A stretch of DNA of 9,870 bases from NCBI GenBank assembly GCA_024278555.1, contig JAJRSX010000048.1, forward strand, positions 1 to 9,870, given 5' to 3'. This stretch comes from a bacterium. Its GTDB lineage: Bacteria > CG2-30-53-67 > CG2-30-70-394. The notes below the pieces were generated by a model, which searched no databases, was not told the origin of the DNA, and saw nothing but the letters and a program-made list of their open reading frames with translations. The position numbers and the translations under genes are program-made. Below are positions 1-4,809 of the stretch, in pieces (within the stretch, counting starts at the first letter, position 1; the number at the start of each line of letters is the position of its first letter).

Positions 1-1
1 G

Positions 2-598
2 GCCCACCCCGTGGACCTCTTCTACTTCGGCACCCTCGCCTGCCGTGCACCCACGAGCCGGGCGGCGATCCTCGCCGGGGCCGCGGCCACCCCGGGGCGG
101 CGATTTCTCGACGTCAACCTTCGCCCCGACTGTTGGGAGATCGACCAGGTGCGCGCCTGCCTGCACCACGCCACGGTGGTCAAACTCAATGACGAGGAGA
201 TCGCCACCCTGGCGCCGCTGCTCGGCCTGCCGGACGGTGAGGCGGCGGCGGTGGAGGCGCTGCGCGACCGCTTCGCCCTGGAGGCGGTGATCCTCACGCG
301 CGGCGGCCAGGGCGCCGCCTGGTACGGCGCCGACGGCTGGCACCGGTGTGCCACCCCGGCGGTGGAGGTGGTCGACACGGTGGGCGCCGGCGACGCCTTC
401 GCCGCGGTGAGCGCCCTCGGCCTGCTCCGGGGCTGGCCCCCCGACCTCTGCCTGGGGCGCGCCGCCGAGCTTGCCGCCGCGGTCTGCACCCAACGCGGCG
501 CCTGCCCGGAAGCGGCGGAGTTCTACACACCGTTTTGCGAGGCGTGGGGGGTGGGGGGATCGCTCCGCTCGCCGGAAAATAGGGATGTGGGGAAATAG
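2..598 (+). CDS. PfkB-family sugar kinase, probable fructokinase (3' part only)
   Basis: This is the C-terminal part (about 198 codons) of a ribokinase/PfkB-family kinase, cut by the window edge. The frame is open to base 2, so the GTG at 11 is probably an internal valine. The family transfers phosphate from ATP to a sugar. The fragment shows the KLNDEE segment, the ILTRGGQGAAW strand, and the family signature DTVGAGDAFAA, whose GAGD aspartate is the expected catalytic base. Fructokinase is inferred from the sucrose-phosphate synthase gene 121 bp downstream on the same strand, because fructokinase genes accompany sucrose synthesis genes in several methylotrophs and would recycle fructose from sucrose breakdown. 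The fold should end near the FCEAW residues. The last residues, ending DVGK, are encoded by an octamer repeat array that also supplies the TAG stop, so the tail looks acquired. Ribokinase or another PfkB sugar kinase remains possible. Confidence 0.85.
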   Translation, partial: AHPVDLFYFGTLACRAPTSRAAILAGAAATPGRRFLDVNLRPDCWEIDQVRACLHHATVVKLNDEEIATLAPLLGLPDGEAAAVEALRDRFALEAVILTRGGQGAAWYGADGWHRCATPAVEVVDTVGAGDAFAAVSALGLLRGWPPDLCLGRAAELAAAVCTQRGACPEAAEFYTPFCEAWGVGGSLRSPENRDVGK

Positions 599-628
599 GG
601 GTGTAGAGGAGGTCGGCCCTCCGGTCCG
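577..628 (+). repeat. Composite element copy A: tandem octamers plus 3-nt-loop hairpin
   Basis: Four octamers run in register: AAATAGGG (577-584), ATGTGGGG (585-592), AAATAGGG (593-600) and GTGTAGAG (601-608). A five-base spacer GAGGT (609-613) follows, then a hairpin with arms CGGCCC (614-619) and GGTCCG (623-628) around the loop TCC; five of six positions pair. The sugar kinase stop codon TAG (596-598) lies inside the third octamer. The element reads in the same direction as the kinase gene, so in the mRNA the array comes first and the hairpin follows the stop. No T-run follows the hairpin, so it is not a standard intrinsic terminator. Copies B and C have the same architecture. Confidence 0.75.
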
Positions 629-653
629 GATGAGATGACCATGGTAGGCACTT

Positions 654-681
654 AAAAAAAGTTCCGCCGGCCGAAGGCCGC
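654..681 (-). terminator. Terminator-like hairpin and T-run on the minus strand (weak)
   Basis: The copy B hairpin (681-667) is followed on the minus strand by six bases (CGGAAC) and then seven T (660-654). The hairpin plus U-tract resembles an intrinsic terminator for leftward transcription. The six-base gap between stem and T-run is longer than usual, and no leftward gene ends here. If it works, it would stop antisense transcripts coming through sps. On the plus strand the same bases are the only A-rich stretch in this gap. I see no convincing -35/-10 pair for sps, so cotranscription with the kinase gene is likely. Confidence 0.3.
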
Positions 682-718
682 CCCCACCCTATCTCCCTAC
701 ATCCCTATCTCCCTATCC
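667..718 (-). repeat. Composite element copy B: tandem octamers plus hairpin, abutting the sps start codon
   Basis: Read on the minus strand, four octamers are GGATAGGG (718-711), AGATAGGG (710-703), ATGTAGGG (702-695) and AGATAGGG (694-687). Spacer TGGGG (686-682) follows, then arms GCGGCC (681-676) and GGCCGG (672-667) around the loop TTC, with five of six pairs. The copy is inverted relative to copy A, and the two hairpins face each other across 38 bp. The array ends one base before the ATG at 720. Its minus strand has five GGG runs separated by 3-5 nt followed by a GGGG run, a classic G-quadruplex-forming pattern, here on the template strand of sps. Confidence 0.75.
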
Positions 719-719
719 C

Positions 720-2921
720 ATGGCCATGTCCCGCGAGACCAACCTCTACATCCTCCTCCTCTCCCTCCACGGGCTGATCCGCGGACGGGAGCCGGAGCTC
801 GGCCGCGACGCGGACACCGGCGGCCAGATCACCTACGTGCTCGACCTTGCCCTCGCCCTCGCCCGCCACCCGCGCGTCGCGCGGGTCGACCTGGTGACCC
901 GGCAGATCTTCGACCCGGCGGTGGGGCCCGACTACGCCGAGGAGGTTGAGGCGCTCGGGGTGGAGGGGGCGCGGATCGTGCGCATCCCCTTTGGCCCGCG
1001 CCGCTACCTGCGCAAGGAGCTCCTCTGGCCCCACCTCGACCAGCTCACCGACCGCCTGGTGGGCTACCTGCGGCGTCAGGGCCACATGCCCCACGTCGTC
1101 CACTCCCACTACGCCGACGCCGGCTATGTCGGGCGCGAGCTCTCCAGATTCCTCGGCACCCCCCTGGTCCACACCGGCCACTCCCTCGGCCGCGCCAAGC
1201 GCCAGCGGCTGCTGGACTCGGGGATGAGCCGCGAGCGGATCCAGCGCCTCTACCGCATCGACCGGCGGATCGAGGCGGAGGAGCGGGTCCTGGAGCACGC
1301 CTCATTCGTGGTCTGCTCCACCCGCCAGGAGGCGGAGATCCAGTGGGGTGCCTACGAGAACGCCTACCACACCCGCCTGGTGGTCGACCCGCCGGGGGTG
1401 GACCTCTCCCGCTTCTCGCCGCCCCGCCGCGGTGCTCCACGGCCGCCAATCCAGGGGGAGCTCGACCGCTTCTTCCGCTCCCCCCACCGCCCCCTCATCC
1501 TGGCGCTGGCCCGCCCCGACCCACGCAAGAACCTGCGCCGCCTGATCGAGGCGTACGGCACCTCGCCGCTCCTGCGCGAGCACGCCAACCTGGCGGTGGT
1601 GGCCGGCAACCGCGACGACCTCACCGAGGCGGAGGAGGAGCTGCGGCAGGAGGTCACCGCACTGCTCGTCGAGATCGACCGCCACGACCTCTACGGCGAG
1701 GTGGCGATCCCCAAGCACCACACCCCGGCGGACGTCCCCGACCTCTACCGCCTCGCCGCCAAGCGGCACGGCTGCTTCGTCAACCCGGCCCTCACCGAGC
1801 CCTTCGGCCTCACCCTCCTGGAGGCGGCGGCGAGCGGCCTCCCGATCGTCGCCACCGACGACGGGGGGCCGCGCGACATCATCGCCAACTGCCGCAACGG
1901 GCTCCTCATCGACGCCCTCAACCCGGCGGAGATCGCCGAGACGATCGCCGGACTCCTCTGGGATCGGCGCCAGTGGCGTAGCTTCGCCCGCGCGGGGCTG
2001 ACCGGCGTACGGCGCCACTACACCTGGGAGGCGCACGTGAACCGCTACATCAAAGAGGTCGATGCTACCCTCGGGCGACTCCACCCGAAGGGGCTGCCGC
2101 GCCACCGCTCCGAGTCGGCGCGGAGGCGGCTGTTGCGCCTCGACCGGATGCTCGTCTGCGACATCGACAACACCCTGGTGGGCGACCGCGACGCACTCGC
2201 CCACCTCCTCGCCCTGCTGCGCGAGCACCACGACCACCTCGGCTTCGCGGTCGCCACCGGCCGCTCCTACGACCTCACCCTCAAAGTCCTGGAGGAGGAG
2301 GGGATCCCGCGGCCCGACGTCCTCATCACCTCGGTGGGAACCGGGATCCACGAGGGGCCGAACCTGGAGCCCGCCTCCGGTTGGCAGGCGCACCTCCGCT
2401 ACCGGTGGAACCGCGAGGGGGTGATCGCCGCCCTCGACGGCGTCCCCGGCCTCACCCTTCAGGGCGAGGAGGGGCAACGCGCCTTCAAGGTGAGCTACTA
2501 CACCGACGGCAGCCAGGTGGTCGCGGACGGCGAGGAGGGCGACCCCGCCTTTGTCGGCGGCGAGATCATCAAGGAGGAGGTACGCCGCCGCCTGCGCGTC
2601 GCCGGGCTGCGCTTCAACGCCATCTTCTCCCACGGCCAGTACCTCGACATCCTCCCGGTACGCGCCAGCAAGGGGAAGGCGATCCGCTACCTCGCGGACA
2701 AGTGGGAGCTGCCCCTGAACCACGTCCTCGTTGCCGGCGACTCGGGCAACGACGAGGAGATGCTCCGCGGCGACACCCTCGCGGTGGTGGTGGGCAACCA
2801 CAGCGCCGAGCTGGAGCCCCTACGGGGTGAGCCGCGCATCTACTTCGCCGAGGCGGGCTACGCCGGCGGCATCCTCGAAGGGATCCACCACTACCGCTTT
2901 TTGGAGGGCAGTAAGAAATAG
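720..2921 (+). CDS. sps: Bifunctional sucrose-phosphate synthase / sucrose-phosphate phosphatase
   Basis: This 733-residue cytosolic enzyme should join a nucleotide-glucose (UDP- or ADP-glucose) to fructose 6-phosphate and then remove the phosphate to give sucrose. Residues 8 to about 455 are a GT4 glycosyltransferase of the sucrose-phosphate synthase type. Visible are the opening LSLHGLIRG, ELGRDADTGGQ (27-36), HTGHSLGR (from 151), the donor-site residues R265 and K270, and the EX7E motif E360 to E368. Residues from about 475 are a HAD-IIB phosphatase with all motifs: DIDNT (D481, D483), ATGRS (512-516), SKGK with K651, and GDSGNDEE (D674, D678). Plant and Synechocystis synthases have degenerate phosphatase domains. 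The intact motifs here predict a bifunctional protein like that of Synechococcus elongatus. The start may be the ATG at 720 or 726. Neither has a visible Shine-Dalgarno, because pyrimidine octamers fill the upstream 30 bases. Donor preference cannot be read from the sequence. Confidence 0.95.
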   Translation: MAMSRETNLYILLLSLHGLIRGREPELGRDADTGGQITYVLDLALALARHPRVARVDLVTRQIFDPAVGPDYAEEVEALGVEGARIVRIPFGPRRYLRKELLWPHLDQLTDRLVGYLRRQGHMPHVVHSHYADAGYVGRELSRFLGTPLVHTGHSLGRAKRQRLLDSGMSRERIQRLYRIDRRIEAEERVLEHASFVVCSTRQEAEIQWGAYENAYHTRLVVDPPGVDLSRFSPPRRGAPRPPIQGELDRFFRSPHRPLILALARPDPRKNLRRLIEAYGTSPLLREHANLAVVAGNRDDLTEAEEELRQEVTALLVEIDRHDLYGEVAIPKHHTPADVPDLYRLAAKRHGCFVNPALTEPFGLTLLEAAASGLPIVATDDGGPRDIIANCRNGLLIDALNPAEIAETIAGLLWDRRQWRSFARAGLTGVRRHYTWEAHVNRYIKEVDATLGRLHPKGLPRHRSESARRRLLRLDRMLVCDIDNTLVGDRDALAHLLALLREHHDHLGFAVATGRSYDLTLKVLEEEGIPRPDVLITSVGTGIHEGPNLEPASGWQAHLRYRWNREGVIAALDGVPGLTLQGEEGQRAFKVSYYTDGSQVVADGEEGDPAFVGGEIIKEEVRRRLRVAGLRFNAIFSHGQYLDILPVRASKGKAIRYLADKWELPLNHVLVAGDSGNDEEMLRGDTLAVVVGNHSAELEPLRGEPRIYFAEAGYAGGILEGIHHYRFLEGSKK

Positions 2922-2923
2922 CA

Positions 2924-2950
2924 GGAGGGTGCATGGGTCCGCCGCCCTCC
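2924..2950 (+). other. Stem-loop just after the sps stop codon
   Basis: Arms GGAGGG (2924-2929) and CCCTCC (2945-2950) can pair around a 15-base loop starting three bases after the TAG stop (2919-2921). A long C-rich run follows instead of a T-run, so it is not a standard intrinsic terminator. It could protect the 3' end or act as a weak roadblock between the convergent genes. Confidence 0.3.
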
Positions 2951-2972
2951 CCCTCCCCTCGTCACAACCGCC

Positions 2973-3016
2973 CAGCCCAAAGGGCTGACCTCCCCTACTT
3001 CCCTCCCTCCCTATCC
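2973..3016 (-). repeat. Composite element copy C: tandem octamers plus perfect 3-nt-loop hairpin
   Basis: Read on the minus strand, three octamers are GGATAGGG (3016-3009), AGGGAGGG (3008-3001) and AAGTAGGG (3000-2993). Spacer GAGGT (2992-2988), identical to that of copy A, follows. Then come arms CAGCCC (2987-2982) and GGGCTG (2978-2973) around the loop TTT, with all six pairs formed. The stop codon of the acyl-CoA synthetase (TAG, 2997-2995) lies in the last octamer, and the element runs in the sense direction of that gene. G runs separated by 1, 1, 3 or 5 nt make a strong G-quadruplex candidate in the mRNA 3' end. No T-run follows. Confidence 0.75.
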
Positions 3017-4809
3017 CCCGCCTCCTCGTACAGCCCCTCGAAGAGGTCGCGGTAGCGGTCGTAGACGATGGCGCGACGCACCTTCAGGGTCGGGGTGAGC
3101 TCACCGGCGTCGATGGAGAGGAGCTCGGAGCGCACCGCGAACCGCTTGACCTGCTGGTAGCGCGCGAGATCGGCAAGCTGCTGATCGATCCTCCGCCGGA
3201 GCAGATCGAGGATCCGCGGGTGGCGACAGATCGCCTCGTCCCCCTCGACCTCCAGCCCCTTGAGCTTGACGTAGGAGCGGAGCTGCTCCATCTCCGGGAC
3301 GATGAGGGCGGTGAGGTAGTTGTGGCCGTCGCCGTAGACCACCGCCTGCTCGATGAAGCGATCCAACGCCAGCCGCCCCTCGATCTCCTGCGGGGCGATG
3401 TTCTTGCCGCCGCTGGTGACGATGAGGTCCTTCTTCCGGTCGGTGATCACCAGGGCACCGGCCTCGTCGAGGTGGCCGATGTCGCCGGTGGCGAGCCAGC
3501 CCTCCCCGTCGACCACCGCGGCGGTCGCCTCCGGGTTCTTGTAGTAGCCCTGCATCACCGCGGGAGAGCGGGTGAAGATCTCCCCGTCCTCCGCGATCCG
3601 CACCTCCACCCCGGGCAGCGGCGGCCCGACCGTGCCGATGCGGTTGTCCTCCAGCCGGTTCACCGCGATCACCGGTGACGCCTCGGTAAGGCCGTACCCC
3701 TCCAGGACCGGGATCCCGGCGGCGTTGAAGAAGCGGCCGATGGTGGGGTTGAGGGGCGCGCCGCCGGAGATCGCCAGGCGCAGGCGCCCCCCCACCCGCT
3801 CGCGCAGCTTCTCCATCACCAGGTGCTCGACGATCCGGTAGCTCACCTCCAGGTGGCGCGGCAACGGCGTGTGGGTGAGGTGCATGTCGAGCACCCGGTG
3901 GGCCACCTGCATGCCGCCGGCAAAGATCGCCCGCCGGACCGGGTTCGACTGCTGCACCGCCTCCCAGATGCGCGCGTAGATCTTCTCGTAGAGGCGCGGC
4001 ACCGACACCATGATCGTCGGTCGCGCCACCACCAGGTCCTCGCCGACGGTATAGACCGAGCGGGCGTAGGCGATGGTGGCGCCGGCATAGAGCATGAGGA
4101 AGAAGCCGACGGTCCGTTCGAGCACGTGCGACAGGGGCAGGAAGGAGAGGCAGACGTCGGTGTCAAAGACCGGGATCGCCGCCAACCCCGCCTCGACGTT
4201 GGCGAGGAAGTTGCGGTGGGTGAGGACCACCCCCTTGGGCTCACCGGTGGTCCCGGAGGTGTAGATGATCGACGCCGCGTCGTCGGGGCCACGGCCGGCG
4301 GCGGCGGCGCACCGCTCCACGTCCGGCAGGTGCTGGTGGTGGAGGGGATCCTCCAGCCACGCCAGGGGACGGGCGAAGGGGGGGGCATCGTCGGGGAGGT
4401 CGAAGCAGACGGCGCGGGTCAGGGCCGGCAGGTCGTCGAAGAGCTCCGCCACCTTGGCGAGTTGCTCCCCGGTGGAGCAGATACAGAGCGATGCCTCGGC
4501 GTGGCCGAGGATGAAGCGCGCCTGCTCCACGGTGGCGTTCGGATAGAGGGGGACGGTGACCGCCCCGGCCGACAGGATCGCCAGATCCGCCAACGCCCAC
4601 TCCGGCCGGTTCTCCGACAGGAGCGCCACCCGATCCCCGGGCCGCACCCCGTGGGCGGCGAGCCCCGCCGCCACCGCCGCGACCCGCCCGGCGAGATCTC
4701 CCCAGGAGATCGGCAGGTACCGGTCGCCCTCCCGATACCGGAGACAGTCTTGCTCTCCCAGGTGGCTCGCCCGGCAGAAGAACATCTGGGGAATGGTGGT
4801 GTAGCGCAT
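2995..4809 (-). CDS. Long-chain fatty acid-CoA ligase (AMP-forming, FAA1 type)
   Basis: This complete 604-residue member of the ANL adenylating superfamily, close to the COG1022 long-chain acyl-CoA synthetases, activates fatty acids with ATP to an acyl-AMP and then forms the CoA thioester. It usually works at the inner face of the membrane for beta-oxidation or lipid recycling. Visible are the P-loop YTSGTTGEPKG (183-193), LPLSHVLER (224-232), the adenine-binding EGYGLTEASP (370-379), TGD (441-443), the hinge region DRKKDLIVTSGGKNIAP (457-473), and a C-terminal lysine (K576 in LTPTLKVRR) in the place of the catalytic lysine. The ATG at 4809 has a weak AAAGAG upstream. The gene stands alone, convergent with sps and 268 bp from coaBC. 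Its last codons (EGGK, stop TAG) are encoded by octamer repeat copy C. Chain length preference cannot be told. Confidence 0.93.
   Translation of the reverse strand: MRYTTIPQMFFCRASHLGEQDCLRYREGDRYLPISWGDLAGRVAAVAAGLAAHGVRPGDRVALLSENRPEWALADLAILSAGAVTVPLYPNATVEQARFILGHAEASLCICSTGEQLAKVAELFDDLPALTRAVCFDLPDDAPPFARPLAWLEDPLHHQHLPDVERCAAAAGRGPDDAASIIYTSGTTGEPKGVVLTHRNFLANVEAGLAAIPVFDTDVCLSFLPLSHVLERTVGFFLMLYAGATIAYARSVYTVGEDLVVARPTIMVSVPRLYEKIYARIWEAVQQSNPVRRAIFAGGMQVAHRVLDMHLTHTPLPRHLEVSYRIVEHLVMEKLRERVGGRLRLAISGGAPLNPTIGRFFNAAGIPVLEGYGLTEASPVIAVNRLEDNRIGTVGPPLPGVEVRIAEDGEIFTRSPAVMQGYYKNPEATAAVVDGEGWLATGDIGHLDEAGALVITDRKKDLIVTSGGKNIAPQEIEGRLALDRFIEQAVVYGDGHNYLTALIVPEMEQLRSYVKLKGLEVEGDEAICRHPRILDLLRRRIDQQLADLARYQQVKRFAVRSELLSIDAGELTPTLKVRRAIVYDRYRDLFEGLYEEAGDREGGK

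Follow-up and report, generated by a model that had tools for sequence, protein, structure and literature searches.

The sucrose gene of the DNA stretch analysed here (9,870 nucleotides; referred to as the window) is bordered by a non-coding foldback repeat that is lineage-specific, high in copy number and about 130-250 bp in length. The element is laid out around a 91-bp core, in which two inverted GC hairpins are joined by a conserved linker, and this core is flanked by inverted arms made up of G-tract octamers or heptamers. We consider it probable that the repeat is a lineage-specific, non-autonomous, REPIN-like element with arms of the same class as the G-rich intergenic repeats of Xanthomonas and Nostoc. 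As a bacterial intergenic repeat it is of an ordinary class, and what is unusual is the combination: two separately described classes, REP doublets and G-rich intergenic tandem repeats, are joined in one element, of which about 100 copies and one relative are at hand for comparison.

Two elements in the window

The window carries, in this order, the genes for a PfkB-family kinase, a fused sucrose-phosphate synthase/phosphatase, an AMP-binding enzyme, a DFP/flavoprotein (coaBC-like), an Rpb6-family protein (rpoZ-like), guanylate kinase, a YicC-like protein and PriA. The initial annotation had described three copies of one composite (octamer array, fixed 5-nt spacer, hairpin) at 577-628, 718-667 and 3016-2973. 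These features are present where they had been placed, although the array given as NNNTAGGG3-4 is only approximate in the first and third copies, both of which contain degenerate units. At 577-628, TAGGG units are found at 580-584 and 596-600, with degenerate units between and after them, and these are followed by the foot and by CGGCCC-TCC-GGTCCG; the minus strand at 3016-2973 holds two perfect TAGGG units along with degenerate ones, the foot GAGGT and CAGCCC-TTT-GGGCTG. What had been read as three copies resolves into a single foldback element at 577-719, to which the first two contribute inverted halves, and the remnant of a second element at about 2926-3016 (Table 1). The 142 nt from 577 to 718 fold as a whole with -66 kcal/mol (z -4.5), a stability attained by 0 of 200 shuffles, whereas the single hairpin regions of the window, when folded alone, were not more stable than their shuffles. 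Since this region folds as a unit and its pieces do not, the first two supposed copies are the two arms and the two hairpins of one element.

Both elements reach into the reading frames of neighbouring genes. The PfkB-family kinase ORF (11-598) terminates at the TAG at 596-598 in the left arm, the start codon of the sucrose gene at 720 directly abuts the right arm of the first element, and the AMP-binding enzyme gene terminates at the TAG at 2995-2997 in the arm of the remnant. In the genome of a member of the same genus, the latter enzyme ends in GLYEEEPA*, as compared to GLYEEAGDREGGK* in the window, where the stop lies inside the array. Judged from these two sequences, the native stop codon of the enzyme has been replaced in the window, or the reverse change has taken place in the relative. 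The kinase-sucrose gene segment (window 1-3020) has no match beside the syntenic genes of the same-genus genome.

Table 1. Features of the two foldback elements in the window and of the gene between them.
Feature	Position	Strand	Basis
Outer motif GATCGCTCCGCTCGCCGG, a variant of GGCTCGCTNCGCTCGCGG; outer left end of the element	559..576	+	Sequence; consensus outer end of other copies
Left G-rich arm, degenerate octamer array	577..608	+	Sequence
91-position core of the repeat family, 67 bits	604..692	-	Covariance model
Core hairpin 2, CGGACC-GGA-GGGCCG on the minus strand, GNA triloop, 5/6 pairs	614..628	-	Sequence and alignment
Linker joining the two hairpins, diverged in the window copy	629..666	-	Alignments
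Core hairpin 1, GCGGCC-TTC-GGCCGG, TNC triloop	667..682	-	Sequence; triloop and stem-class analysis
Right arm, four perfect TAGGG octamers on the minus strand	686..719	-	Array pattern counts
Fused sucrose-phosphate synthase/phosphatase gene	720..2921	+	Pfam S6PP and GT-B domains
Degenerate core of the second element, left half lost, 25.8 bits, E 0.03	2926..2997	+	Covariance model
Hairpin 2 of the remnant, CAGCCC-AAA-GGGCTG	2973..2987	+	Sequence
Arm of the remnant, octamers on the minus strand	2994..3016	-	Sequence

Copy number and definition of the family

Three-unit arrays of the TAGGG octamer occur 33 times in the 3.06-Mb genome to which the window belongs (the own genome), as compared to 0 for a reversed control pattern, and two-unit arrays occur 68 times as compared to 4; the arrays are thus no product of chance. 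At these sites, inverted array pairs surround a common asymmetric core. We built a covariance model from 19 of these cores and accepted matches at E<=0.01. The model finds 113 core matches in the own genome, some of which are halves of split copies, and 24 in the single genome from the same genus; these counts carry the bias of a model whose training set consists mostly of array-selected copies of the own genome and which therefore favours such copies. No match was obtained in six genomes of the same class. The array and core counts, set against their controls, rule out a chance similarity among GC-rich borders. A dispersed REP-like or non-autonomous element had been suggested as a possibility in the initial annotation, which had named a scarcity of further copies as the finding that would speak against it; the abundance of cores in the own genome, along with those of the relative, supports a dispersed, REP-like and probably non-autonomous element.

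The strict three-unit octamer array is absent from the same-genus genome, the cores of which possess a linker variant of their own and other G-rich arms. By reading the own-genome copies, we found octamers in only about 30 of them, while the rest carry heptamers (RTGRGGG, TTAGGGG, CAGGGAC, GTAGAAA) around the same core. Since one core is common to copies with differing arms, the family is to be defined by the core and not by the variable arms; the octamer array, previously taken as a defining part, gives way to heptamer or other arms in most core copies. A search of the window against Rfam at gathering thresholds matched no described RNA family, and an exact 30-mer of the core found no match in genome_contigs or viral_contigs, from which records of the own genome are possibly excluded.

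A subfamily of cores, noted in four sequences, has a (TTCTACTT)n-type array inside the linker (in one of them at its positions 3984-4077). Another palindromic repeat, likewise dispersed and of the form GATCCGGGGCCTCCGGCACCGGCCGGCCCTTCGGGCCGGGATCGGGGGTACAACCCCC, stops at the start of the left foot of the core (own genome C68:20418, C171:9553, C110:12753 and C191:2418), and several own-genome cores (C173, C38, C94) have next to them a repeat with GTCCGACAGACTCCTAGG or the complement of it.

Covariation in the core hairpins

The case for the fold of the element rests on covariation, not on energy. Pairing in hairpin 2 was scored on a sequence-only alignment of 62 cores; it is kept in 91% of the cells, and double changes are present in 30 cells, as compared to 8.8 after shuffling. 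The covariation score of this hairpin (0.199 versus 0.117 when shuffled) was reached by 0 of 500 shuffles, and slid partners scored lower. Mostly, this covariation is one G-C/A-U alternation, and it may therefore reflect few events. Hairpin 1 exists in two stem classes, GCCGGCC/GGCCGGC and TGGCCGC/GCGGCCA, which differ at several paired positions; its stem was placed by pairing, so that its pairing percentage constitutes no independent evidence. The double changes in hairpin 2 and the two classes of hairpin 1 are in line with the earlier idea that the stems are kept by compensatory change.

The hairpins are 6-7 bp long and stand on feet of the sequence GGGGNNGGW; the fixed 5-nt spacer noted previously is real, but it belongs to this conserved foot of each hairpin. 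Triloops of the TNC type were found in 41 of 54 and those of the GNA type in 41 of 53 triloop hairpins, with all four bases occurring in the middle position. GNA triloops are very stable in DNA. A small alignment of cores gave no good structure with RNAalifold, since the two classes of hairpin 1 are misaligned in it. The outer GCGAGCGNAGCGAGC motif, considered as a further hairpin, is unstable by nearest-neighbour DNA parameters and was therefore not called one.

Gain or loss of copies

At the priA-yicC junction, the same-genus genome contains an element, while the window reads GGCGTAAGTTGACG and has none there. Conversely, two C68 sites and one C123 site carry an element in the own genome, and the same-genus genome has only a short spacer without a core at these positions; at several other orthologous junctions, both genomes possess the element. 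Orthologous junctions hence differ in the presence of the element, a difference that, at the level of sequence comparison, shows that copies have been gained or lost; presence or absence does not tell which of the two occurred, nor how. On C173, an element is nested in the linker of a second one, and both halves of the outer copy are kept. No clear target-site duplication was seen at the priA-yicC junction and three other junctions, where sequence turnover is high, and precise excision was not seen among the orthologous junctions, most of which have turned over too much to offer clean ends.

If the element is indeed REPIN-like, it would spread as a non-autonomous REP doublet via hairpins in single-stranded DNA, presumably with the help of some enzyme, and its arms would change in length and type by slippage.

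Placement between stop and start codons

Genes were called with a simple codon-usage model. Among the 66 elements with both flanking genes called, 60 lie between co-directional genes, five between convergent and one between divergent genes (p 4e-8 against a base rate of 60% that was assumed, not measured). At 42 of the 60 co-directional junctions, the core as drawn is on the strand opposite to that of the genes (p 0.003). Of 77 upstream genes, 46 have a stop codon supplied by an arm-type unit (TAGGG or TGAGG), as compared to 15 of 77 control stops. On the downstream side, the species-specific outer motif GCGAGCGNAGCGAGC, which occurs 51 times in the own genome, is followed by an ATG within 0-7 nt at 29 of these occurrences; among 192 other genomes, only two contain the motif, with a single match each. 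Recognisable starts after the outer motif include the protein N-termini MERTLSIIKP, MPTDYYETLGV and MPILPILTYPD, which from these residues we take to be those of ndk, dnaJ and def. The repeats take over stop codons and abut start codons of such conserved genes, and they therefore provide a test bed for how operons tolerate insertions of this kind. Insertion at a stop/start junction would be tolerated because, whichever strand is read, the 5' arm has stop codons and would end reading early. Stops in all three reading frames are present in 21 of 166 arms, a modest enrichment over the 3.4% seen in shuffles.

This placement also suits a device that acts at the level of the RNA. In an mRNA, the element would form a long intercistronic stem, which might serve mRNA stability, processing or the bridging of translation and would be kept by selection rather than by spreading. 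The predominance of co-directional junctions is consistent with such a function, as are the arm stop codon upstream and the outer motif with its C-run directly before the ATG downstream. So is the rarity of Shine-Dalgarno-like motifs before ATGs close to the element (4 of about 35, by our own count of the nearer starts, versus 17 of 42 controls, p 0.005). However, the lineage-specific high copy number, the presence or absence of the element at orthologous junctions and the copy within a copy fit spreading, and both REPs and G-rich repeats are placed alike without a proven function (PMC3733652, PMC4692102). We therefore regard an RNA-level device as unlikely. A specific version of it, in which the stop codons of the 5' arm, the long stem and the outer GCGAGCGNAGCGAGC-C(n) before the start codon would let ribosomes stop and restart, is a candidate to which we give even less credence; if it were true, dozens of genes would be initiated without a Shine-Dalgarno sequence.

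The RNA 3'-end signal considered in the initial annotation is disfavoured in the form of an intrinsic terminator. That the repeats act as bidirectional intrinsic terminators at gene borders is hardly credible despite the GC hairpins at gene ends, since a terminator scan of the window found none, a T-rich tail follows only 1 of 68 and 0 of 72 hairpins, and the elements favour co-directional rather than convergent junctions.

The arms and their relation to known repeats

Similarity is greater between the two arms of a single element than between arms taken from different elements (23.9 versus 19.8, sd 0.74; 0 of 5000 permutations), and the element thus displays the terminal inverted repeats of a MITE, as its arms are inverted and their similarity exceeds that of permutations. 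The FB (foldback) elements of Drosophila are eukaryotic elements with inverted arms of short tandem direct repeats in variable number. The likeness is architectural only: FB elements are much longer and lack a REP-like core.

With REPINs and REP doublets (Bertels and Rainey, 2011, PMC3116915; Di Nocera et al., 2013, PMC3733652), the element shares its high copy number, extragenic location and two inverted hairpin units with a conserved spacer, and likewise the heterodimer stems, the position at co-directional gene borders and termini that give TAG stops to flanking ORFs. It thus agrees with REPs and REPINs in being a high-copy extragenic palindrome (20-40 nt in the definition) arranged in inverted doublets with a spacer. 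Unlike REPINs, it possesses the GGGGNNGGW feet, arms of tandem repeats, the outer motif and mostly TNC/GNA triloops. Most described REPs belong to one of two super-families, which bear a GTAG or a CGTC tag. Within the 10 nt that precede the hairpin, GTAG is found in 1 of 60 cases for hairpin 1 and 5 of 60 for hairpin 2, and the CGTC tag accompanies 1 of 60 and 0 of 60 hairpins. Given the lack of these tags and of a linked RAYT, membership among the REPs fails; the element is built and placed like a REP doublet, yet it is not filed as a REP.

The G-rich heptamer repeats of Xanthomonas and Nostoc (GGGAATC or GGGNATC / GGGGA(C/T)T, 7 nt) are located between aligned ORFs, close to the stop codon when on the sense strand and close to the start codon when on the antisense strand, and many of them form inverted pairs (Rehm et al., 2015, PMC4692102). 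The placement of our element is the same, with the stop codon on the sense and the start codon on the antisense side of co-directional ORFs; its units differ, being TAGGGANN (8 nt) and TGRGGGR and others (7 nt). This match in placement, which extends to details (PMC4692102), raises the alternative that the repeats are nothing but G-quadruplex-forming tandem arrays of this class, and that the hairpins arise merely from two facing arrays. A G-quadruplex motif (as a sequence motif) is present in 99 of 166 arms versus 42 when shuffled. In named genomes, moreover, a C-tract array lies downstream of 14 of 64 TAGGGANN arrays and upstream of 1 of 64 (in cyanobacteria and alphaproteobacteria), so that foldbacks of a G-arm followed by a C-arm recur in other phyla. 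As the sole account this is insufficient and in our view very unlikely, since the 91-bp core, the conserved linker and the covarying hairpins are common to copies with quite different arms, and core copies exist whose arms share no unit type. For the Xanthomonas and Nostoc repeats, we found no description of a conserved REP-like core such as the one enclosed by the inverted arms here (PMC4692102), and a small literature search did not find G-rich arms combined with such a core. The intrastrand triplex motif TM-ECO, made of G/C tracts and common in the intergenic regions of bacteria (Holder et al., 2015, PMC4666352), has a C-stem first and then two G-stems with loops of 3-6 nt, in contrast to the order of G-arm, core and C-arm in the element.

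Octamer arrays are common in named genomes, and those that we read sit in different surroundings. Cyanobacterial TAGGGANN arrays lie beside CAATACTTCTCG in three sequences, with a matching CGAGAAGTATTG following in two of them, which suggests a different foldback element with octamer arms.

Y1 genes and mobilisation

The own genome possesses four Y1 (PF01797) genes and the same-genus genome five; none of these nine genes has a core match beside it. Those flanks of own-genome Y1 genes that were read carry other terminal repeats (GGGGTCAGGTCTT...). A linked RAYT was rejected as the mobiliser, as no RAYT is found beside any copy of the element. Since some TnpA-REP enzymes tolerate changes of the tag, one of the nine Y1 enzymes may mobilise the REPIN-like element in trans. 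The element offers a test bed for what moves REP-like repeats that have no linked RAYT. The own-genome Y1 genes that were read have terminal repeats of the GGGGTCAGGTCTTG type at their borders; at own-genome C193:3373, a core copy is disrupted by a repeat resembling these (GGTCAGACTTGCAAGTTTGCAA...).
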